Shown here one piece after another: positions 1 to 64,000 of a DNA stretch of 64,000 nucleotides; position 1 is the first letter of the stretch, and each line of letters starts with the position of its first letter. The stretch is taken from assembly GCA_034670405.1 (NCBI GenBank), contig JAXDDX010000002.1, positions 5,919,501-5,983,500 of the forward strand, written 5' to 3'. The stretch comes from Hoplostethus atlanticus. Its lineage: Eukaryota; Chordata; Actinopteri; Trachichthyiformes; Trachichthyidae. The position numbers and the translations under genes are program-made. Below the pieces are notes generated by a model. It was not told the DNA's origin. It was given only the letters and a program-made list of their open reading frames with translations, and ran no database searches.

Positions 1-295
1 TGACACAGGGTTGTAGTCTATGACGGGCAGTGCCCCTCCAGACTGGGCCACGTTGCCAGTCATGACGCCCCTGGTGAATGTGGCAGCAGGAGGGTCCACC
101 GCCTGGCTGAGCAGGGGAACCTGCTTGGGGTTCAGGTGGATCAACACATCATAGGCATCCAGTGGAGGACGCATGGCCACCTAAACACACACAAACACAT
201 TTGAATCATAATGGTGAAGCAATAAATGCAATATCTAATGATCATTTCTCCAAATAGTGTGAGTCATGAGCAGAGTGGAGGGGTGAGTAATTGAG

Positions 296-345
<50 letters not shown>

Positions 346-3300
346 TGTGTGTTTGAGAGAGTGTGTGTTTTACGGACCCTGACATCTTGTATCTGGTCGC
401 CGTCCATCAGCTGAGGTTCCAGAACCTTGAGGCTCTCTGCAGCCACAACCACCACGCGCTGCAGCATCTGAAACACACACAAACTCCACTGTTAAGACAA
501 AGACACACACACTTTAACATTTGATGGTTAAAGAATTGATGTCCACTTTTCTTTTCTTAAATACTCTTCTAACAATAACAGCAGCATCCAAGTAATTATG
601 ACAGGCTGAATCCAAACGGACAATTTCAATAACATTTCCTAAATGCATGCTTGTAGTATTGTATGCTTTATTTGATAGCTCACAGTGAACAGAGACCAGA
701 AGGGTGGGAGAGAGACGGGGGGGATTGAGATGTTGAGATTACATGATATGTGCCTCAACCAACTAAGCCACCAGGATGCCCGATACCACCAATACCACCA
801 TCAACTGTTGAAAGAATCTTTTTCTTGTGGATGTTTTTTTTTTGACAGAGGTATGTTGAAATCTGTTTATTTGCTTCAAGCCGGCTGATGGAGAGGCTCT
901 GTTCGTGGACTGTGTTCTGCAGTAGACCCATTACTATGGCAACTGTCCATTGCGTCTTCTCTAGGTTATTTTGTGCTATTTGTCCATTTGAATGACCTTG
1001 AATACAGACTATTTGAAAATTCTGATTCACTGCATTAAATAATGTGTGCACCTTTTAAATGAATCATCTTTTGATAGCTGTACTATGATAATAGAATGAT
1101 ACTTTGAATGATGCTGAAGTGTTTGGTTCCCTTGCCCTTTTGTCAGTTCAAGGCTTCTACTCGACAGCTGAGCTAGAAAATAGCCTGTAGACTAGATGTC
1201 TGTACACATCGGGATAACAAACTTTCATTCACAACGCTACCCAAGCAACCAGATGAGGTAAAAGGAAAACCATCATGATGACCTTCGCCTGTGATGACGC
1301 CTCCGTCAGGACGTCACAAAGTACTGAGTTCCAGCCCTCCATGATCATTATAAAGGGAGATGCTGGGTCAAGAGAGAGGCTCAGTTTTGGCATTGGCTTC
1401 CAGGGGGACTGAGGTGGGAGAGCACGGGACAGGAAGCTTATCTGGGTCAGCTAAGCACCATGGGAAGCTGGCGTGTCTACGTTTTCCATACACTACTGTG
1501 TGCCGCTGGACTCTTTTACAGTTATGGTCTCCTCCAAACAGAGGATTTCAACACAAGATATTTAACTCATTTTACTTCAACCAAGGGCAGCAATGAAAAG
1601 CAACTGGTGAGCAATAGTTCATTCAAAGTTTGGTCTACAAAAACCTCAATCATAACTGATGTAAATATTCTAGTCAGATTTAAAACATTTCTCTACAGGA
1701 TGTAGCAATTATAGAATCAATGGTTAGCTGACTATTTTCTTTTTTCTGGTGGTGATTTTATGATTGCTGTATTCTGTGATAAATTATAAATGACATGTAA
1801 TATGATACTTATAATCTCATATTCTGGATTATTTAGATAATACAGAGCATTTAATATTTCCAGATCAGTGATTTACATGTGGTTTTAGAGAGACTGAAGA
1901 ACAACAGGTTTCCATCCCTTGGGAAAAAGCACAGTTGCCTGCCTGTGGTAGGTGATGCAACAACCCAGTCAATCTCTCATTTATGTTCATCAACTAACAT
2001 ATAGCCAGTTAATCTGACTGGGTTAACAATATCTCTCAAGAGAGACATGGCAGCTTGTGTTTACTCTAACAACGACAGTAAACTATTTGCTGTAAAAGTG
2101 CATGTCTAAGGCTAGATCATCATTCATTCATCATTCACCAATAACAGACTGTAATATGGTTACATATCCCTGCAGTGTTACCCAGGGGACCAGTGTGCAC
2201 TGAGGAAAGGCTCCAGGATTGGGAAACTGTGTGACTGCTCGCTGCCAAGAACATGCAACTCTTTTCTACACCGTTGTTTGTGATGCTCGATCTCTCCCTC
2301 TCCCTCTCCCTCTCTCCCTCTCCCTACTCTGTTTACATAGTCATGTCTGACAAATTACAAAGGTGTAATGCAGTGAAAACAACTTTGATAAAGGCTTGTG
2401 AACTACTTTGTTTCTTATGGACGTTTTCATTTTGTCTTCTTTTTTTGTCCATCTTTCCTGTTTCATGTTCAACTGTAATAATCACAAATCACACATTTTT
2501 GAAATCTAGTGCTAGGTGCTACACAATCATATAAATGCTGTGTGTGTGTGTGTGTGTGTGTCCTCCGACCTGTACGCTAGGTGCTCGCTTGGTCCACAGA
2601 GATAGCTTCTTGTCTTTGGGCGTGGCTATAAACATGACAGGCAGAGACTCCCTGGAGGCCATGAAGTCATTCTTGATCTCTGTGTAGTCGGCAGCTACAT
2701 GTGACAGGGAGGAAGGGGGTAACAACAATTCAACTTGCCATTGAAACCGCCATATATAGGAGCAGGATGTCAAAGAATTTCAGGATTGTATAGAGAAAAG
2801 GGGTCTACGTTTGTTTGTGTGTCACAACAGAAAGAAGTGCGTGTGTGTGTGTGTACTTGCCTGTGAGCTGGTTGTTGAGGTTGACTACCAGGGGGTTGTT
2901 CCTCCAGTCAAAGGACGAGAGCAGATGGAGGAAGCGAAGGAAGCCCACCTGAGGAGAACTGAGAAAGACAGAAAGAGAGCACTGATAAGACGTCATTCAC
3001 ATGACCTACTGAAAGAACAGAGGGAGGTGATGAAGAAATGAAAATCAACCAATGAAACAGATGGGTGGATATAGATTACTAGAAAGTAGGACTAATAGGT
3101 CCGACTTACCCAGGAGAAGTGAAGGGTGCAGGCTGCAGGAAGAGCGACGCCACCAGCAGGTCGGCTGCGTCCTCTGTAATGTCTTGGCTAAAGAGCTGGG
3201 CCCCCAGCCAACGTTTGGCCAGGCGACACACTGACCCAAAACATGGGTGCTGCTGCTGGAGCCTACCACACACAACACGGAGAAGAAACATAGGAAGGAA

Positions 3301-4180
3301 GAAGCAAAAAGTGTGAGGAAGGGAACGATGCAGGAGAAGTGGCAAGTAAAATAAAGAAGATGGGAGGAAGCAAAAAAAAAAAATAGGTGGACGAAAACAA
3401 AAAATCCTTATAACAGGGCCAGAGGGGCTTATGGGTGGGAAAACTATAGGCCTGGAAAACTCAACACAGTATCAAAGAGTTAGGCACTATTATAGGAACC
3501 TTAAACACCTTAAAGATGATTTCACCGGTCGTCTTTTTCCATGTATTCAACTAACAAAAACTGTCTAAAAGTGTGATCATTGTTCTTAACAGCATTTGAC
3601 TGTTTACTGCCTTTAAATCATTGATAAAATTAAAATAACAGCAGTCTATCAAATTGAGCAGAAAACAGACACCAGGCTTCCCATCGTGACCCTGATGTAA
3701 AATTCCAGGACTTTCCACAACTAAGTCGGAGGACGTCCATGACCTAAAAATGGAATTCATTTCTGGTTTGTTGGTTTTGTTTTTCAGCTCAGAAATGGGC
3801 TGAACAACATAAAAACCACCATGCAATGCAATAAATGTGTCAAACAAACTGGAAAAACATTCTATCTATAGCTGTAAAGTCACCCTTTGTAGAATACATT
3901 GATATTCCCTGGAGAATTGTTTTCAAAATCCCTGGCTTTCCCTGTCTGGTCTTTGCCTACACCAGGATATTCAAGAAATTCCATGAACAATGGGAACCTT
4001 GTGGCACTCACGCTTGTTCTCTCACTCACTCACTCACTCACACACTCACACACACACACACACACACACACACCATTTAGCAGACGCTTTTATATAAAGC
4101 GACTTACAAAGGTGATAGTTTACACTATGTGGGGATCAAACCCACAACCCTGAGACTCTCACGCTCTACCGACTGAGCTG

Positions 4181-4224
<44 letters not shown>

Positions 4225-7200
4225 TAGTGTTACTGTGTTAATCTTACCCATGCAACGTGCTGGTCAGTAGGGGCTTGTGTATGGTCTCTATTTCCAGAGC
4301 CTGAGCCTCCTCGCTGTCCCTGACCACCAGCAATCCCTCGGCATTCACACTCTCCCTCAGCACCTGGGGCTCACGATGGTACGCTACCTGGATACGGAAT
4401 GCCAAGCCATCCTGGATACACACACAAGGGAAAACAAAACATGTGAATAAATGTGAATACATATCGACATCAATGAAAAAAATAATGGCATGCAGCTAAC
4501 TTGTGTTGACATGTTACAAACTTATATTGAGAAGCCTTTCACATTATCATCATTACAATCAGGGACACGAACACACACACACAGACACACACACATGGAC
4601 ACACACACACGGACACACACACCTTCCAGACGTCCAGGTGTGTGGGGCAGGGCCTGCAGGTGTAGTGGTGGTGCTTATTCAGCAACTCTCCCAGGCTGAT
4701 GTGGAAGGCAGCTCTGATGTGGCGGATGGCGAGGCGGTCGTGAGGCCACTTTCCACTGCCCTCCATGTGACAGATCACTACAACAGGAGGGTTACTAGTA
4801 TCTTAGTATGCAGTCTGAGAGTTTGTAAGGATAAATGTCTGCTTTGCCCAGGTGAGCTCCATTTTAGACTGGCTGTGATTCAAATCCCATCTGTTATGCT
4901 TACACTAGCCAGAGGTTACCAGAGAATAAGACAAACTTATAGAGAAATTGTTTGCACAACTGGCCACACCCATCCGTGGGTTGCTTTTAATATATATATT
5001 TTGATGATAAACTGAAGGAGAGAAAAAAAGTAAGGTAAATTAATAAGATTTCAATTCTTAGGGTTTTAATTCTATTTTTTGAAAGATTCTTCATGCATGT
5101 TACATTTAATCTGACAGATTTTCTACCATTTTTACAGCAGAATATTATGTAGATATGCCAGTTGCAGTTAAAAGCCTAGCTGCTGCATTCAAATCTACTT
5201 TGAGATAAGAAAGAAATGTATGGTTGAGGCAAGAATACGTTGCAAGAGTCAATATTAGACAAAATAAAAGGTAATTTTCATTATTTTTCAACCGGTAAAA
5301 ACTTTTGAATGAATTAACTATATTCTATAAAGGATAGCAAACACACAAGCACAGATTAAACATGTTGCCGTAGGACGGAAGGATGAAGCACTTACCCATG
5401 ATAGGGGTAATGTAGGCAGGGCAGGGTTTGCTTTCCTTAGGCACCAGTGATCGGGAAATCTTATCCCTGTCAAAGAATAAGTAATCCAGCTTCAGCGGTA
5501 CAGGGGGAAAGACCTACAAAGGGCAAAGTTGAAATGTCAGAAAACAGATAGACAGACACTCACATGTGTACCTACGGGCAATTTAGAGTCTCCAATACAC
5601 CTGACTTGAATGTCTTTTGAATGTTTGAGCCCGGGTCCATCTTACTGTGAGGAGACAGTGTTAACCACTGAACTGTGCAGCCAACAATAATAATAAATAG
5701 AAATGCAGCCTGATGAGAACACACCTGTGTGTATCTGAGTGCTGGGTGGGCTCCTTGCACTGAGGTGATGGAGAGAGGTAGACCCTCCAGCTTCCACAGC
5801 TTCCTACTCAGGTCATCGTAAGACTGAACCACCTTCAAACTCTCCTCCTCTCCAGTACTAGGCACCTGAAGGACATATACATACACTTTCTTTGCACATG
5901 TGTAAAATCCATTTTTATACGGAAATGAAACGGGACACTGACACCCTCTTTCGGTCAACAACCGCAAATAACAAATATTTGACATTACCTCATGTCCCAT
6001 TTTGATGACGTCGTCAACCGTCGCCCCGACGTATCTCACACAAGACTCGGGAATATCTGCATGTCTTTTAGAAAACAATGAAATAACGTTATAATTTCAC
6101 CGAAATACAGATTTAATTTGCTTACGTTTTCTGTCTGGGCATGGCACGGTGAAACAAGTTACAACTAGGATTTTATTGGTTTATTTACCTGCTTCCCCTG
6201 CTCAGCGATAGCTAGCTTGCTAAAGTTAAAAACATTACTTGGCCTAACTCAGAAACCAGACCCAGCACAAAAAACATGAAGCGCGGGAGGAAACGCAGCT
6301 CTGTATGGGATTGTTTTGAACAGATGGGGGACGTTGTCCGTTGCAGGAAATGTGACGTTAGGCTGAAATACTGCGGGGGTGCCACCACCACAATGATGTA
6401 CCACATGGGCAAATACCATGCGTCGAAGACACCGCCGGAGGATGAGAAACCGCCGGAGTCTGAAGCCCAGTGTACCCAGGAGGAAAGTGTCGCTCAGACG
6501 GAAGCACCGGAGAGCTTACAGGTAGCTTCCTCCACCACGGAGCCTGGCTCTGACTCGGGGGAGAAGAAGCGCCCGAGGCGGAGCTCTGCGTGGGACGTTT
6601 TCGTCAAAGTGGACAACGAGGTTCACTGCACAATATGTGACACTAAGTTGAAGTACATGAGCAGCACCACCAACATGATATACCACATCAAAAACAAGCA
6701 TCTAAACGCCACGCCGGATGACGAAAAACCACAAGTTGATGAGATAACACATTCAGAGGTGACTGGGCTTATTTGTAGAATGATAGAGAAGGATATGCTT
6801 CCCATCAGCATGGTTGATGGTGATGGCTTCCGTGAACTACTAAGTTACATCGTGCGTAATTATAAAACGCCGTCAGCGGGCGATATTACACGGCGTATTG
6901 AAGCCCACTTTCAAGACAAGGTAGACGAGCTTAGAGCGCAGCTGGGTACAGTTGAGATGGTGGCTATCACTACTGACTGTTGGGAAGCGCTCCCCCCTGA
7001 GAGATACCTGACAATTACAAGTCACTACATAACTGAGGACTGGCAAGCGAGGTCGGCTGTACTGCAGACACATAGGCTATCCGTTGGTCACACTACTACA
7101 GACAGTTTCACAGAGAGACTTCTTGACACGGCGGAGACCTGGGGAGTCGCTGGGAGAGTGACTGCATGCGTTCAGAATGACACACAGAGCACCCTGCCAG

Positions 7201-10200
7201 TCCACTCATGTGCCCGGGCCACCTGGGACTCTGTCATGTGCTTTCCCAGCACCTTGCAGTTGGCTGTCAATGATGGGCTAAGTGATGATATGCTCAGCGT
7301 TGTTGTTGCTGCTGGGAAACTAGTCAAGCACTTCAACCACAACTCACTGGCGAGTAAGGCCCTGGAGCTCGAGCAAGCTCAAATGCGACTGCCACAGCAC
7401 AAACTGATCCAGTCAAGCAAAGCCAGATGGGTCACTATCTGTGACATGTTTGAACGGCTAGTCGAACAACGGTGGGCCATTAAAGCTGTACTGTCTGACC
7501 GCATGGTCACCAACCGACAAGAAGCCCAGACCCTTGAGATCGGATATGATTATTGGCAAATAATTGAAAACTCCACACCTGTACTGGCAACTCTGAAATG
7601 GGCAACAACAGTCATGTCTGCTGAAACAGGACTGTCCATCTCAAACATCTACCCCATCACATTCAGCCTCCTTCAGACTCACCTTGCAGCAAGAGAGCAT
7701 GACGTCGAACAAGTCTCTGAGTTCAAGTTCAAAGTCCAGAAATCATTGCGGAAACGCTTGGAGGTAGGCATAAACATACGCTGACTTTCAATTTGAGCTC
7801 TGATTGAAATATAATTGGCTGATATTAGCAGAATACCTGTCCCATTAAAACAAGTGGAAATTCATGCTAATAAATGTATACACACTCAGTTCTTTCATTT
7901 ACTGTTCACAGATTGACTCTAACGATCTCGCCTCCAAACCAGCTCTGATTGCCTCTATGCTGGACCCTCGTCACAAACATCTCAGCTTCCTGACACCAAC
8001 GGGGAGACTAGCTGCAAAAGTGAAACTGCATGAAATGGTTTCAAAAATAGATGTGGTGATACCTACTGTTGTGGGCACTAAGGTTGAAAACCAGGAGACA
8101 CTAGTGACGCCTCCTAATAGCCAGGTGGCTATGTCACAGCAAAAGGGAGGTGACACCAAAAATACCATGATGTTACTCCTAGGGGACAACTACAGTTCAT
8201 CCTATGCCACTGACTCTGAGGCTCAGGTAGATTACTATTTAAGAGAAATTTCTCCCTCACTGGACATAAACCCTCTTGACTGGTGGAGGGTCAATGGCCC
8301 AAGATTTCCCACCCTGGCAACTTTGGCAAGACGCTACCTATGCATACCTGGGGTATCGGTACCTTCTCTATCCTCAGAGGCTGGACAAACATTTGCAAGA
8401 ATGCGTACACGACTGAGCCCAGAGCATGTTGATATGATGATCTTTCTGAACCAAAATGTAAAGCTTGCATAGCCACACATGAGGAAGATATACATAGGCC
8501 TACCATGAAGTAGAAAATGTTGTTTGTTGCCAGGCTGTAGCGTTGACCAATACACAGGATCTGATGTAACCATCCTTTGCACCATTAAGGGTGAGCAGCT
8601 TAGCTAGTTTTTGGTCGTTTGATGTAACTCAAGAAGAAACATGGAGTGGCATTACTGGAAAAAGCTGTTTATATTTATTGTTTTTTACCTGTTTTACTTT
8701 TTTTTAATGTGTGAAGCACAATGAACTTCCCTGCGTATGAAATGTGCTATATAAATAAAATATGACTTTACTAACCAGTTACAATTGCAGTAAAGTGATG
8801 GATTAGCCTACACAACACAAAGGAAACCATTAAATGTTTCACTTTGTCATGGTTCTATATGCACGTTGCCCAAATGTAATAAACACAAAGGAGTAAACTG
8901 TTGTAACCTATCTTGGATTAATTGCAATCTATATATGTATATACACATGTATATTCCATACTTTGGAGCCCAAAGTATGATGTCCTTTCTTTTCAGTTCA
9001 AGTTGCTGGCTGCCATGAATCTCTCTGAGAAAAGAAGTGGTTCATGTGGCTACATGGCATCCAACGTACACCGGGCATATCCTGGCTTTCCAGCCGTACT
9101 GTTCTGTCGGCTGCTAACACAGTATCTAAGCTGCTTTCTTTCATAAGCCTCATCTACCTCATCAGATAAGAGTGCACTCTCTGGTATTATGATTTCAATA
9201 CAATGGCTACTATGACGACCCCCTTCACCTGGGCACTAGATGTCCCTGTTTCTTGTTTTGCAGGTGTTGAATGGAGGGTTGTCAGCTGCATGAGCTACAC
9301 CTGGGCCCGGTGTGCTCTGCCCTATAAACACCTCCCTTTTGCAGTTTCTCTCTCTCGAGGGAGGTCCCCTCTCCCCGGCAGGCAGCATGTGGTTTTCTTT
9401 TGTTCTGTTCTCCAGATACCCGGCCACACACCCATACATGCTTTACATTACTGATGCACTGATTCCTACACATTGTATGGTTTTACTTATGTTTTTGTAA
9501 AATAAATTACTTTTCTTAGCCGCAGCTCGTGTTGTCTCTACCTTTTGCAGCTTTTGAGCCGGGCTGTGACACTACTAACATAAAAAACGAGAAAGATCAC
9601 TGCCTTGTTACCATATGGGTATTATTATCAACTTGGCTAGAATCAACTGACCAATCAGATTGCTTGGCCAAAACTAACCATTATAACATAACATTATGCC
9701 TGTTTCCTCTCTCAATATAGTATGTCCAGATGCAATACATACAGCTGTAGGAGGTGAGTAACGATCTGTCTGGGTACTAGTTGTTTCTGGTAGGCGCTCT
9801 CTCCGTTCCACAGGACAGCCTCAGTGATGGCCCCATCCTGGAAGCGACGCAGCTCAGGAGCGAGAGCCCCACAGCTGGCGAAATTCAGCTGCCTAGCAGA
9901 AGACAACAGTGCTATTAATGCCACACTGCTCGACACATGGTAATGCATAAACGATAAATAGTAGAAAGTACAAGTAGAAACCAGTTAAAGAACAAGCACA
10001 GATTCTGTAGTCCTATTGCACATTTGTGATTTTACAAGCAACAGCTAGGTAACTTAAAAAAAAAAATAAATCAAAACACATTGTAAAAGTGCAAATACCA
10101 GCCATGTCAGACAGCGTTGTAAATTGTGACCAAAAAACCCTACCTTTTGGTAGATGTGTTTCCAATAGGATTACATCCAGAAAAGAATATTTTTGCTCAT

Positions 10201-15972: not shown

Positions 15973-18190
15973 TCAGTACAGTGGGGTGACCTGAGGTGAT
16001 GTACCTGTAGTAAGCTGTTCCGCAGAGAACAGTGGCACAACTGGATTGCTTTGCATCGGCCTCAGCCTGGTAGACTGGGCCGCAGGGCACATTTTGAGTG
16101 GGCTAAGTTGGAAACCCTGGGAATCCTTGAGAGAAACACCCTCGACCAAATCCATTGTGTCAAGCCTCACAGTCCCAGAGAAGGGGATAATCCCTTCCCT
16201 TTTACGTCCAGTGGGACTGGACTTCTTCCTGAGGGACAGCCAGACATCAGCCCCATTTCTCCCCTGAAGCTTAGCTGGGTGATCCAGGTAGTTGGTTAAT
16301 GGCTTCAGTGAGTTTACCATCCATTCAGTTTGTTGTTTCTCAGATCTCCGTTCTGCTATGGATAGTCCACTGGGTTTCTTGTTGTGGGATGTTGTGAGGT
16401 TGGTGTCCAAGATCTCATACTGAGGTGTGACATAGTGCTGAGGCAGGCAGACATGACTGAGCCTAGGTATGGGTTGGTAGTCCTCATGTTTATGTAATGA
16501 TTCAAATCTGTGACTACTAATTAAATGTACCCTATTTTCCCCCTGTTTCTCCTTGTCATTTTTTTCTATTGAACCAGACGGGGACCACAGTAATTTGTCT
16601 TCATCGGTGTTGGGAAGTGAGTGAATCTGCCTTCTTTTCTTTCGATCACTTCTTAGTGGTGGGCGAGGGGTAAGTATTCTGTAGTTCCCGCAATCTGCAG
16701 GCTTGCTGGGACTTCTGTCCTTTTCAGATTGCTTTGGTGAGCCACTTTGGGCCGTCACATGGCATTGCTGGCTGGCACTTGGCTCTGTTTCTCCAGCTAT
16801 CTGCCCAATTGCATCCTCCTATTAGAAACAAAGTAGAGCAAAATGATTTTTCATTAGCTCAAGAAAGCTACTCTTTGTGGTTGCTATCATGCCACCTGTA
16901 GACCACTTTCAAAGACTGGCTAATGAAGACATTTTCGATAAGACTAATTTTCTAGTGCTTTTCAAGAGGAATGTTTTCTCTGTCCAGTCGGAAATACAGT
17001 ATACTACTCAGGGAGTAGGGCACTACTGGAATTTCTGAGATTTTGATTAAAAGCATGACACTGTAATTTAATTTAGCCAACATCAATTTGCACTACTACA
17101 AAAAACACAAGTGAAATTCATATACACACATACAGTTTATGGTGCTAGTCTTTATTACAGTCCTAATGGGAGCACAAATGTGCAAAGACACACTGCTTGC
17201 TTGGAAGGCCTATTCCATCATTGTGAAAATGAAACAATGGTGAATCTATCATTATCTATCATTATTATTTGTTTGCTTCTGTTTGTTGCCTTAAGTCTTG
17301 TTCTAAAGCAATATTTGTTCATCCTCTGCCTATTTTTGCAATGATAGATTTGAACTCCCTAGCAAGTGGCATGTCTCTGGAAGTTGTTTTTCATGCTGTT
17401 TATGATGGGAGCCAAAAGCTAAATTACACCACTATTTGCCTTAACTCCAGTCTACTCTATGACAAAGACATTTCCATTATCATCACTTTATAGTATTTGC
17501 TGCATGTTGCAGAAGAGACATAATAAAAGTACCTGTTGAGAAGTGGGGTGAGGTGGAAGTGTAGTGTTTATAACAGGCACACATCCTTGAGCCCAGGAGT
17601 CTGCAGATGTTGGCAGAGGCTCTAAGTCCTCTGTCCTGGAGGCCTCCTCTGGCCCTTCTCCTTCATCTCGGTAGAGGAATTGCCACTCCACAACCTGAAC
17701 CAGGTAGTCATGGGCCCAGGATGTGGAGAAATGCCCCAGCTAGAGGACAGATGGGCAACGTGGAGGTCATTAACATGCCATGTGGTAGAATTGGATTTCA
17801 CCTTTAGTGAAAATGATGCAATCTAAATGATTATTATGTTCTCTCCATGTGCCCTGCAACTGATTGTAATGCACATTATGTGTCAAACAATTATGTGGTG
17901 TCCACTGTGAAAAAAATAAATAAAATAACTGTTTTCCTTCTCAGTTTCACCTGTCTCTGAATGTACCCCTTGAACCAGCTCTCTGTGACCTGGCTCAATA
18001 CTTCCTCCATGATCTCTCCCACTATCTCCTCTCCATCCTCCTGCCTCAACAGGTCCATCCACTGGGCCTGAGTGAGGCGACCTGGGACAATTTCCTCCAC
18101 ATCAGGGTCCTGAGTTTGAGGAGTGTTCGCTTGAACAGAGGATCTGTGTCCACCTTTGTCAGCACGGGACTTGGCAGCAGAGCGGGACAT
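15973..18190 (-). CDS. c2orf81: C2orf81 homologue (DUF4639-type protein), three coding exons
   Basis: Exons 17951-18190, 17533-17739 and 15973-16818 join in phase 0 (CAG|gtgaaa and CAG|gtactt donors) and give 430 residues; human C2orf81 is ~615. Two blocks match the human protein. The first is [19 protein letters not shown] near residues 29-47, followed by acidic [14 protein letters not shown]. The second is [14 protein letters not shown] then [10 protein letters not shown] in exon 2. The long last exon is basic, Ser/Pro-rich, low in predicted order and poorly conserved, with motifs such as RILTPRPPL. The molecular function is not known; I infer none beyond likely cilia/testis expression from the X-box promoter. 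It is head-to-head with wdr54, as I recall for human. The introns (16819-17532, 17740-17950) hold nothing recognised. Confidence 0.88.
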
Positions 18191-18818
18191 CTTGGTTCAG
18201 AGGCTGGTGGTGAAATATGAAGCAAAACTGGAAGAAAAGACATGAATAACAGAAACAAACTGGATGCTAATCATAATGTACAATTTTGACATGTTCACTG
18301 AGCTCCACTGGAAGAATTTAACTATTGAGCTTTCTGGAGGTGTCATGGGCCTAATTGAATGAAACAATTGTGATGCGAAACTTAAAGCATAATTCTACAT
18401 GACTAACTTTAGCTAAGGCAGCAATAAATATATCAGCGTTACTGACCTATCATGGCTTTCGTCATTTACTAGGTAACATTAATAGGTTGTTGTCACGTAA
18501 CGGTAGTCTTCAAGTCAGGAAAAAAACGTAAAACGCCTACGTTAACGATACCAGACTAGGGTTTGGGCGGGGCAATTATTTATTATTTTGCAAAACGTCC
18601 AACCACGAGGTTACGTATATTATAGTATGAAAACAACTTTTATACAACGTTTATAACTTACCTTATACCAATACGAACTGAAAAAGGTGCACTAGACAAT
18701 ATTTACCACACTTCTCTGCACCCTCTTTTCTGTAGAGGGGTTGCTAAGCAACTGAATACGCCAACCTTTAGGGTACGTAAGAATCCATGACGTAATACGC
18801 AGAGGTGGAGCTGTCTCT
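18191..18818. promoter_or_regulatory. Shared divergent promoter of c2orf81 and wdr54
   Basis: 628 bp separate the two divergent start codons; noncoding 5' exons may lie inside. It contains scattered CpG, a perfect X-box (18740-18752) and a CRE-like TGACGTAA (18788-18795) that lies 24-31 bp from the wdr54 ATG. There is no clear TATA box. It is likely a bidirectional promoter. Confidence 0.6.
18740..18752. promoter_or_regulatory. RFX X-box
   Basis: GTTGCTAAGCAAC is a perfect inverted repeat (GTTGCT / AGCAAC around one A), the form bound by RFX-family factors that drive ciliary genes. It lies ~67 bp upstream of the wdr54 ATG and ~550 bp from the c2orf81 ATG. Confidence 0.6.
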
Positions 18819-20732
18819 ATGGCTGCAGAGGACGCGGAGGTAATCGTCTTGCTAAAGATAGCTAGAAAAGTAGTAAGTTAATGTTAACGCTATCTGTGTT
18901 GATTTATGGCGATAGCGCTATTTTAATTAATCGTCACATAGTGATTTGTTGTGTAATCTGAAGAAAGATTATGTAAAATGTGTTGAACAATACCTGTCGC
19001 TGTCTTTTATGCAGCGTTGTTTAAGTTAGCTTAGCGCTAACGTAAATGATTGCCACCAGTTGCTGCCAAATATGTCTTTGACTTGGGTTTTTAATGAAAA
19101 CTTACTGACGCCATAAATAGTGACACTGACTCAATGTCCTTATCCTCACCAGACTGACATCAGGTGACCCATTATCCTCCTCAACAAACTTACGTGCTAA
19201 GAGAGGATTGCACGATGTATCACAAAGAAAAGAGCATACAGATCAAAAACAGCGCGTCTGCACTCTACAACAACCTCAGCGTGCTGCGCATCTCCCCACG
19301 AAGCCTCACCTACTTCACGGTGGTCCATGCTAATATGGTCAACATGGTCAGCGCGTCCTGGGACGGCCTCAACTACTCCCACCGTCAGCTGCAGTCCAAG
19401 GAGCCTAACGTCGCCACTAGCACCTCACTCATCATGCAGGTGAGACCCCAATGCAACTTTAGTCTAGGTATAATATGTTTGTGTGTGTCCCAAACCAGCT
19501 ATTTTGCCCAGTGACACACGGGTGGCTGAGAGCAGGATTGGATTATTAGAGATGTGTTTCTCAAAGTGTGGGGGATTCCCTCCAGCCAAGGGATCTCCAG
19601 CTAAATGAAAAACAGTGTAATTTTATTTATTCAATCCTTAGAAGTTAACACAATGAGAAACTCTATAATAGTAACTGTTCCCACTATTATGTTCCCACCT
19701 ACAGCATAGATAGTCATTCAATTCTGTACCAAGTCATGTCTAACGACAAAACTCTTCTCATATGTAGTTCCTTAGAACAGATTTTCAATACCTTCCCCTC
19801 TGACAGAAAGGGTGAAGTCTTGCTTGTTTCAAGATGATCATCGTGTCGACATAAGCAATTGGCTTAATCGTAAGAATGAAGAAATCCTTTGGTTTCTTGT
19901 AACAGGCAGCCTGGTGTGTTCTGCCCTCTCGTGATCTCCTAGTGCTGACCTCTCAGAACGGCATCCAGGTAAGTTTGTGTGCGTGCCTGTGTGTGTGTGT
20001 GTGTGTGTGTGTATGCGCATGTATTACTGCAGCCTCTTTTCTTCATTTAACTCTCTTGTTTCAGATGTATGAGTCTGACGGCTCTATCATGGTGTACTGG
20101 CATGCACTGGATACCCCGGACACCCCTACAGGTAAACACTTAAGCTTGAACTTGTCAACCCCCCCACAAATCCTATGTAAACTGTTTGCAGCACACTTAA
20201 TCACTGGAAGACTGACTTGTTTCACTTATTTATCATTGGAAAGAATGATGTGTTTTGCAATGCTGCTTCATGTGAACGTCCCCTTTGGCCATCCCCTAAC
20301 AGTGCCTGTTGTTTGTGTATATGTTCAGAGTTTGTCTACTGTACTGACAGAGCCTATGTGTATCCCAGCTCAGGCCGTGTTTGCCCGAGGGATAGCAGCA
20401 GTGCAGGAGAAATACATATGTGTGGGTGAGTACCATGAAATATTGTTCCTGTGGCTGCTTGGTTCAATACATTTACAAAAACTTAGCAAACAAATACTCT
20501 TGTCGGTCTGTGTCTCTCTCTTTAGGCGTGTCATCTGGTGCGATACTAGTCTTTGACATTCCCAGTAAAGGCAGTAATATCACCCTGTCTGAGGTCCTGG
20601 AGGAGCACAAGGAGTCCATCACTGACATGGCCTCAGAATGCTCTGGAAGCCTGGTATAGGAGTTCGTAGAATTAAAAAGGACATGTTACAGGATAGCCTT
20701 CACTCTTGTATGAATTACAACCCTTCTTGCCC

Positions 20733-20817
<85 letters not shown>

Positions 20818-21489
20818 AGGAGTGCATAGCTGACCTGGTCAGTGCAGATGATGCTGGCAATCTGTGTGTGTGGAAGTCTGGAGAGGAATTTCAGCTGCTC
20901 AACAAGATCCCTGGCTTTGAGTAAGTCTGTTTCACTGTATCATTGTGGAGTCTAGTCTAGAATTTAATACTGACTTAGAAAGTTTGAAAAAGCTTAACTG
21001 GTATAATGGCGACCCCCTCTCATTTCTTCAATCCTCCTTTCTTTTAATTTTCTCTCCATCTTTCCCCCACCTTTACTCTATACATCCTTGTCTCCTCTCC
21101 TCCATGCTCCTCCTTTTCCCTCCCCATCCCTTCTCTTGTTATAACTGTTTCCTTTATTTCCCCTCCCCGCTCTAATCCTCTGTCCATTCTCCTCCTTTTG
21201 CTCTTCTTCATCCCCTCATAATAATAACCCGCTGTCTTCCTCGCCCCTCTCAGTATGAGCTGTTCGTCTGTCAAGTTGTGGAAAGGTACGGCAGTGGCAG
21301 GTTACGGCACAGGCCAGATCCGTCTTTATGAGGCTGTGACGGGGATTCTGCACGCCGAGGTCAACGCCCACGCTCGCTGGATCTACTCCCTGGACATTGC
21401 CCCTTTTTCTGGACTGGTGAGCTTCACAGGCAGAAGGGAGAAGAACGATTTACAATATACATATATATATATATACTCTATACTCTATA

Positions 21490-21539
<50 letters not shown>

Positions 21540-22045
21540 TCTCTATACAACACTAAACACAGAGGGTTTCTCATATCTGTCTATTTATCTTTGTGTGACC
21601 CTCTCCTCATGTTCTTTAGCTTCTGTCTGCTGCTGAGGACTCTCTAGTGAGAGTGTGGCACCTGACCATGACCCCAGAGACCAACAGTGTGGAGGTAACC
21701 AATCGGCTTTCAACAGAATGCAAAGTCAGATAAAATGAATGTATTCTGGTTTCACTAGCAAGGAAGTCCAAAACTAAAGCATAATCTTTGTCAGTCTCCA
21801 GTAGATTCAATATATTGTATTAGGGTTAAACTGGCTTTAAGTGATTAAAAAGGCTGTTTTTTCTCTAGCTCGTAAAGAGTCCCTGACTGTGTGTTTTGCT
21901 CACTTTGTCCTAGATTGCCCATATGTACAATGAGTGCATGACAGACACTCAGATCTGTGGGGCCAAGTTCTGCGACGCGGATGGCTATGCCTTTGCAGTG
22001 ACTGGCTACGACCTGAGTGAGATTATCCGCTACACACAAACATAG
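18819..22045 (+). CDS. wdr54: wdr54, WD repeat-containing protein 54, ten coding exons
   Basis: Exons 18819-18839, 19164-19439, 19906-19968, 20065-20131, 20369-20425, 20526-20653, 20820-20920, 21254-21416, 21620-21694 and 21914-22045 join in frame to 360 residues. It is a beta-propeller WD40 protein. Matches to human WDR54 run its whole length: ALYNNLSVL, LLVLTSQNGIQMYESDG, MVYWHALD, QAVFARGIAA, ILVFDIPSKG, AGYGTGQIRLYEA and CDADGYAFAVTGYDLSEI at the C-terminus. The start is uncertain. The human protein (334 residues) begins at the position of M at 19215 (MYHKEKSI), which would give 336 residues. The upstream ATG in exon 1 (MAAEDAE) is in frame through a plausible GAG|gtaatc donor. The exon 7 acceptor is preceded by an ~88 bp C/CT tract (20730-20817). 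The introns otherwise hold CA, CT and AT microsatellites. Confidence 0.94.
20730..20817. repeat. C-run and (CT)n microsatellite forming a splice polypyrimidine tract
   Basis: About 14 C followed by ~37 CT units, with two CG interruptions, ending directly in CAG at the acceptor of wdr54 exon 7. Confidence 0.95.
21456..21540. repeat. (AT)n/(CT)n composite microsatellite in a wdr54 intron
   Basis: ATAT tract, TACTC repeats, a CT block and a second long TA tract in succession. It is self-complementary and length-prone. Confidence 0.9.
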
Positions 22046-33529: not shown

Positions 33530-33823
33530 AATTATGTGTCTGAGCTCTTGTTTATTGGCTCTTGTTCATTTGATACACTTATTTGTCTTAGCTCTTGTTT
33601 ATTTGATTCTCTTATTTGTCTCATTTGTTTAAGATAAAGTAGGTTGCTAACTTACCTTAACACTAGTTATGCTCTTAGTTGCTTGTTTAGGAAGGAAATG
33701 CACTTACGATTTCTGGTGACTAGTAGTTTTCTTGCCTACCTATGTTGAATGCACTTATTGTAAGTCGCTTTGGATAAAAGCGTCTGCTAAATGACTGTAA
33801 TGTAATGTAATGTAATGTAATAT
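33530..33823 (+). repeat. LINE/SINE 3' end with TGTAA tail
   Basis: It ends TTGTAAGTCGCTTTGGATAA, AAGCGTCTGCTAAATGACTG and then (TGTAA)n at 33796-33823. This is the 3' tail shared by many fish LINEs and their partner SINEs, and it is the same tail as the SINE at 4074-4183. The body from ~33530 has ordered short repeats (CTCTTGTTTATTGGCTC / CTCTTGTTTATTTGATTC). The family is not determined. Confidence 0.6.
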
Positions 33824-62933: not shown

Positions 62934-64000
62934 AGATTAGATTAGATTAGATTAGATTAGATGGCTCTTTATTGTCCCCGAGGGGAAATTGCAGTTATGC
63001 AGCAGTACAAAACAAGAGAGAGGCACACATCACGATACAATAAAGAAATTGAAGGGCAACAGGCTATATATAAAAGATCCTAAAAATATACAAAAAAGAG
63101 AAATATACAAAAGGGGGGTGGGGGGGGGGTCGAGAAGAAAGCAGTAGGCTCAGGGGTTAATGTTGTAGCGTTGTACAGTCGGATGGCTGTTGGCACAAAA
63201 GAGTGCTGGAAGCGCACTTAGGTTGGATGAGACGGTGGCTGAAGGAGCTTCTCAGCCCGTTCATCTCATCATAGAGGGGGAGGATGGGTTCTCCAAGATG
63301 GATCTGATTTTAGACCTCATCCTCTCCTCAGCCACCTCCTCCAGTTCTTAATCCTGTTGGCATCCTTTGCCTTGATGCCACCTCCCCAACATACCACAGC
63401 AAAGAAGAGTACACTGGCCACCACAGTCTGGTAGAACATGCGGAGCAGCCTGTTGCACACATTGAATGATCTGAGCCTCCTCAGGAAGTACAGTCTGCTC
63501 TGACCCTTTCCTGTAGAGGGCGTCAGTGTTGTCTGACCAGTCCAGTTTATTGTTGAGGTGCAGGTGGTTGTTGTCGCACCATCCGACGAACCTCTCCACC
63601 AGACTCCTGTACTCATCCTCATTGTCCTCTTCGATGCAACCCACAATGGATGAATCATCAGAGAACTTCTGGAGATGAGTAGACCCAGAGTTGAATCTGA
63701 GTCTGAGGTGTAGAGGGTGAACAAGAATGGCGACAGTACCGTTCCCTGGGGTACACCCGTGTTGCTCACCAGCGACAGGCTACTCTGTAGACAAACAAAC
63801 TGCGACCTGCTGGTGAGGTAGTCCGTAATCCAATGTGCCATGGCGTGGTCTACCTGCATGGCTGCAAGCTTCTCTGCAAGCAGGAGTAGCTGGATGGTGT
63901 TAAATGCACTGGAGAAGTAAAAAAAACATGATTCTCACAGTGCTCCCAGGCCTCTCCAGGTGAGAGTACGCCTTAGGCAGCATGTAGGTGATGGCATCGT
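62934..64000 (-). mobile_element. Decayed L2-like LINE, 5' part off the right edge
   Basis: Read on minus from the right edge: domain A remnant (SSAFNTIQ), AHWITDYLTSRSQFVCLQ, GVPQGTVLSPFLFTLYTSD (domain B), then in another frame FSDDSSIVGCIEEDNEDEY (catalytic DD), LVERFVGWCDNNHLHLN and NKLDWSDNTDALYRKG. A third frame block follows (SRLYFLRRLRSFNVCNRLL, MFYQTVVAS). At least two frameshifts and a deletion of the segment normally between NNHLHLN and NKLDW show it is dead. The 3' end is AATAAAG plus a pentanucleotide tail (ATCTA)n at 62934-62961, typical of L2-type retroposition. Confidence 0.85.

Follow-up and report, generated by a model that had tools for sequence, protein, structure and literature searches.

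A CART gene nested antisense in nol6

The window, that is, the whole stretch of DNA analysed here, comprises 64,000 nucleotides of the Hoplostethus atlanticus genome. Exons of nol6, a housekeeping gene of ribosome assembly, were found on its reverse strand, and a complete gene for the appetite neuropeptide CART was found on the forward strand within one of the nol6 introns (Table 1). The peptides of the nol6 exons matched human NOL6 over 359 residues (E = 6.6e-126), and the alignment was gapless at the host-intron junction. A genome search with 361 residues of nol6 gave eight matches, all within the window, indicating a single occurrence; no second copy was found for the residues searched. A nol6-like peptide was also recognized by eye ~800–1070 bases before the start of the window.

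The CART unit from TATA box to stop codon (1349–2283) lies wholly within the host intron, the ends of its transcript being predicted ones, and its stop codon is 286 bases from the upstream nol6 exon. The two genes are convergent-antisense across the whole CART unit. The preliminary description had proposed a CART gene fully nested in antisense orientation in one 2.1 kb nol6 intron, which was borne out by the intron borders and the NOL6 alignment. It had also placed this intron between the last two nol6 exons of the window, but both the exon at 378–467 and that at 1–180 were found downstream of the intron.

Splicing of the three CART coding exons gave a reading frame of 112 amino acids followed by a stop codon. 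The introns of 257 and 228 nt are both in phase 0 with GT..AG borders, and exon 3 opens with cysteine I. The same layout, three exons with cysteine I at the start of the third, has been described for the CART family (PMC13364575). The junctions (1606/1864 and 1947/2176) and coordinates proposed earlier were reproduced exactly in the recomputed gene model, and the claim of a complete three-exon gene of 112 residues is upheld by the spliced reading frame together with the Pfam CART and PDB 1hy9 matches given below. No unusual structure was found in the RNA 3' of the CART stop codon (z of –0.06).

Several other features were observed in the window. A BED-finger/hAT-dimerisation gene at 6216–8469 (+), with open pieces at 6216–7781 and 7849–8469, lies inside another large nol6 intron, the borders of which are approximate (~6070–9777). 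The Rfam scan gave none near CART and one match in the window, at 33746, where a UnaL2 LINE 3' element (33746–33800, +) is located. A reverse-transcriptase fragment was seen at 63320–63934 (–). The amino-acid composition of the open reading frames was of no use for picking coding ones.

Table 1. Positions of the nol6 and CART features in the window and of further CART loci in the genome
Feature	Position	Strand	Basis or remark
nol6 exon, next after the downstream exon	1..180	–	continues past window edge
nol6 exon downstream of host intron	378..467	–	alternative end at 374 possible
nol6 host intron	468..2569	–	2102 bases; GT..AG borders and NOL6 alignment
CRE half-sites	1295–1299 and 1304–1308		pattern scan
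CRE-like site GGACGTCA, one mismatch to TGACGTCA	1309..1316	+	pattern scan; putative function
TATA box (TATAAA) of CART	1349..1354	+	sequence; 111 bases before ATG
CART coding exon 1	1460..1606	+	residues 1–49; signal-peptide region judged by eye
CART coding exon 2	1864..1947	+	residues 50–77; holds KK70–71 processing site and extra Cys74
CART coding exon 3	2176..2283	+	residues 78–112 and stop; all six canonical cysteines
Weaker variant poly(A) word GATAAA	2387		sequence scan
Candidate variant poly(A) signal TATAAA	2530..2535	+	followed by TG run; just before nol6 exon; putative use
nol6 exon upstream of host intron	2570..2694	–	NOL6 match, splice sites
Further CART exon-3 loci	contig C14 at 215.9 and 247.6 kb; C45; C4; C147 at 128.6 and 133.9 kb		above Pfam cut-off

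Family identity and phylogenetic placement

The spliced product scored 108.1 bits with the Pfam CART family (PF06373), for which the cut-off is 27 (E = 2.5e-31). The only solved structure matching at E ≤ 0.001 was that of CART (PDB 1hy9, E = 3.5e-12), in which 24 of 38 aligned residues were identical. A protein search with the product returned 53 homologues, every one of them with a CART domain. The closest was from Diretmus argenteus (88% identity), followed by such sequences as those of Myripristis (82%) and Thunnus (76%), Solea CART4 (68%) and medaka CART ch9 (67%). The elopomorphs Conger, Albula and Synaphobranchus were at 52–56% and the bichir Erpetoichthys at 51%; over the whole length, most spiny-rayed relatives shared 62–88% with the window CART. 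Judged by this one protein, the fish would probably be close to Diretmus and Myripristis. Chance is excluded by the Pfam and PDB scores and by that of the NOL6 match, and for CART by the 53 homologues as well. The expectation that the nearest relatives would be CART peptides thus held. It had also been supposed that automatic annotation easily misses such a gene; in fact, many of the 53 relatives, from spiny-rayed fish, cods, eels and bichir, are named CART in NCBI/UniProt, and annotations of CART1 already exist for many fish.

A profile search at a threshold of E ≤ 1e-6 retrieved 940 proteins, the best 120 of which were listed. A tree was built from 38 of 128 fetched proteins and three typed ones, with a midpoint root only. 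The window CART grouped with eight acanthomorph rows, including medaka ch9, at 100/100. This clade was joined next by three elopomorphs (96/92) and then by bowfin and one gar sequence (95/92). The tree did not resolve the joint of the window clade to mammalian CARTPT. The end branch of the window CART was short (0.055), and a long branch of 0.65 changes per column was found between acanthomorph and eel CART1.

Six further CART exon-3 loci of this genome exceeded the Pfam cut-off, and complete gene models were obtained for C4 and for the C14 locus at 215.9 kb. In the tree, the C4 gene fell in a separate group (100/100) and the C14 gene in another (100/96), by which assignment of the window gene to either type was rejected. 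One locus, C147:133874–133993, is a divergent exon 3 that carries serine in place of the last canonical cysteine and lies ~5 kb downstream of an exon of CART5-like type. It is perhaps a CART6 remnant; CART6 is thought to be lost in tilapia (PMC4436185).

By its position in the tree, the window gene is classed as CART1 type, kin to the one CART gene that mammals have; the name is taken from medaka CART ch9. The latter (AB568295) is listed as CART1 in Table 1 of a synteny study (Cai 2015), in the group of mammalian CARTPT (PMC4436185). Naming within the family has been described as muddled, and the clade nearest to mammalian CART is called cart4 by Cabillon 2026 (PMC13364575). The same source reports brain expression of cart4, and changes of it with feeding state, for tilapia and seabream; these genes would be the orthologues of the window CART.

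Cysteines and processing of the peptide

The preliminary description had listed six canonical cysteines. All six are present with the canonical spacing kept (residues 78, 84, 96, 98, 104 and 111), but the mature part contains seven in total, Cys74 being additional. The codons of Cys74 and of another unusual residue, Tyr79, are at 1936–1938 and 2179–2181, respectively. Among the 128 fetched relatives, 125 had a readable core for comparison. Cys74 was absent from all 125, which have Q (71), Y (33), H, F, M, W, K or R at this position, and in none of them did the 14 residues before cysteine I include a cysteine. Tyr79 was found in one of the 125, a Conger paralogue. Both residues are odd for a working CART. 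The unpaired Cys74 could permit a dimer, or mark relaxed constraint, or reflect a base error.

These residues might be the first signs that the CART1 copy is starting to decay, that is, that it remains in frame although selection on it has relaxed in this species, the other CART paralogues doing the work. The six further exon-3 loci would provide such paralogues. Nevertheless, the frame, the splice sites, the KK site and the six canonical cysteines are all intact and the end branch is short, and we consider decay to be unlikely.

The dibasic site KK70–71 is kept in the window CART, which lacks the upstream KR-type site. Likewise, the first dibasic site of mammalian CART was missing in 49 of the 50 readable rows of the set P0001–P0052, Erpetoichthys being the only exception, and it was present in 68 of the 75 rows outside this set. 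A dibasic site near the place of KK70–71 was kept in 46 of the 50 rows. It follows, probably, from the absence of the first site in 49 rows, 12 of the 50 having been placed in the tree, that teleost CART1 may make the short peptide form only.

Promoter and transcript end

A TATA box of its own had been claimed for the CART gene, and TATAAA was confirmed at 1349. The CRE-like site is 33 bases upstream of it. CREB sites are said to be important for the activity of the mammalian CART promoter (PMC4942143), and by analogy they could be relevant to this fish promoter as well. At the six other CART loci, CRE-like words were absent within 6 kb upstream of C4 and occurred at least once at the others, at varied distances. 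Because of this patchiness, the CRE-like words upstream of CART are weak evidence.

From the CART stop codon to the nol6 exon, no canonical AATAAA or ATTAAA was found, the first AATAAA being at 3350. If the variant signal at 2530 is used, the CART and nol6 mRNAs would not overlap; if it is not used, the CART mRNA would extend antisense over nol6 exons. An alternative reading is that the two genes depend on each other: the CART mRNA would run past 2569 across the nol6 exons, or transcription of each gene would hinder that of the other, and the nest would act as a regulatory switch. The missing canonical signal and the convergent-antisense arrangement over the entire CART unit are compatible with this. 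However, TATAAA at 2530 with its TG run could end the transcript within the intron, and nested pairs are common (767 in zebrafish, PMC2151771). Such dependence was judged very unlikely.

CART1 is instead most likely an independent transcription unit inside the nol6 intron. In this model, the TATA promoter with its CRE-like sites would give a three-exon CART1 mRNA, probably polyadenylated in the same intron, and the two mature mRNAs would have no exon in common. The precursor would be cut after KK70–71, releasing a 41-residue peptide equivalent to CART(62–102), which would function in energy balance as a neuropeptide of the brain.

Origin of the nest

A retrocopy origin of CART1 in nol6 was rejected. 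Since CART kept both introns and its promoter, retroposition is unlikely, and entry by a DNA-level rearrangement that included introns and promoter is the most likely route. A repeat within the host intron (657–781), situated to the left of the CART promoter, was found at no fewer than 10 other places in the genome with 71–93% identity; by eye, it resembles an old tRNA-type SINE.

MRPS27, which we take to be a neighbour of CARTPT in human, was found on the same 18-Mb contig as the window CART, 7.15 Mb distant. BDP1 is presumably another CARTPT neighbour, and NFX1 is presumed to lie near human NOL6. A BDP1-type domain was found on a contig other than that of CART1, and NFX1-type fingers were likewise found on another contig than the window; both results argue against a simple conserved block. 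A search for the MAP1B repeat gave no match anywhere in the genome and was uninformative on the position of MAP1B. To the right of nol6, DUF4639 (–) is followed by WDR54 (+) at 17894–21644; we assume that the DUF4639 gene is C2orf81-like, and that C2orf81-like and WDR54 are neighbours on human 2p13. The neighbour pattern fits rearrangement within one ancestral chromosome.

It is conceivable that CART1 entered nol6 once in early acanthomorph history, coincident with the 0.65 branch, and that in most spiny-rayed fish this satiety neuropeptide gene and nol6 have since been transcribed in opposition, interfering with each other in feeding-state neurons; we give this scenario a small chance. That an assembly artefact placed CART in nol6 is barely credible: a single assembly is the only basis, but there is no N in 94 kb examined around CART, and matching nol6 exons and splice sites flank the 2.1-kb intron on an 18-Mb contig.

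Discussion

Taken as a whole, a complete CART1 gene lying antisense in a nol6 intron, acting as an independent unit and having entered at the DNA level, is a reading in which we have good confidence. The gene structure, the homology, the nesting, the single copy of the nol6 part searched and the location of MRPS27 on the same contig were observed directly. We infer from the sequence that the gene would be transcribed, processed and functional as described, independently of nol6, and that it would have come by the route proposed.

Were the pair shared by many fish, it would offer a natural setting in which to ask how a neuropeptide promoter under tight control works when its host is a constantly transcribed housekeeping gene, and it would serve as a landmark for CART1 orthology. 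If the nest is confined to this lineage, it would be a minor rearrangement. A literature search joining nol6 with CART found no paper, and one for nested genes and neuropeptides found RNA-seq of a rat pain model only.

The window CART resembles known CART1/CARTPT genes (medaka ch9, Solea CART4) in having three coding exons, the third of which begins with cysteine I, and in the six canonical cysteines and the KK site. It differs from them in Cys74 and Tyr79 and in its location in a nol6 intron, a location that is not stated for CARTs in the available portions of PMC4436185 and PMC13364575. Nested genes have been counted in old Ensembl builds (972 in human, 767 in zebrafish and 174 in fugu), and many gene overlaps are unconserved between lineages (PMC2151771). 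The nol6/CART1 pair is a further example of this common arrangement. A known case is that of the LRRTM genes nested in alpha-catenin introns (PMC3933685). Unlike these, CART has introns of its own, and its host intron is 2.1 kb long in comparison with tens to hundreds of kb; like them, it is a neuronal gene on the opposite strand from a widely used host gene, one intron of which contains it entirely.
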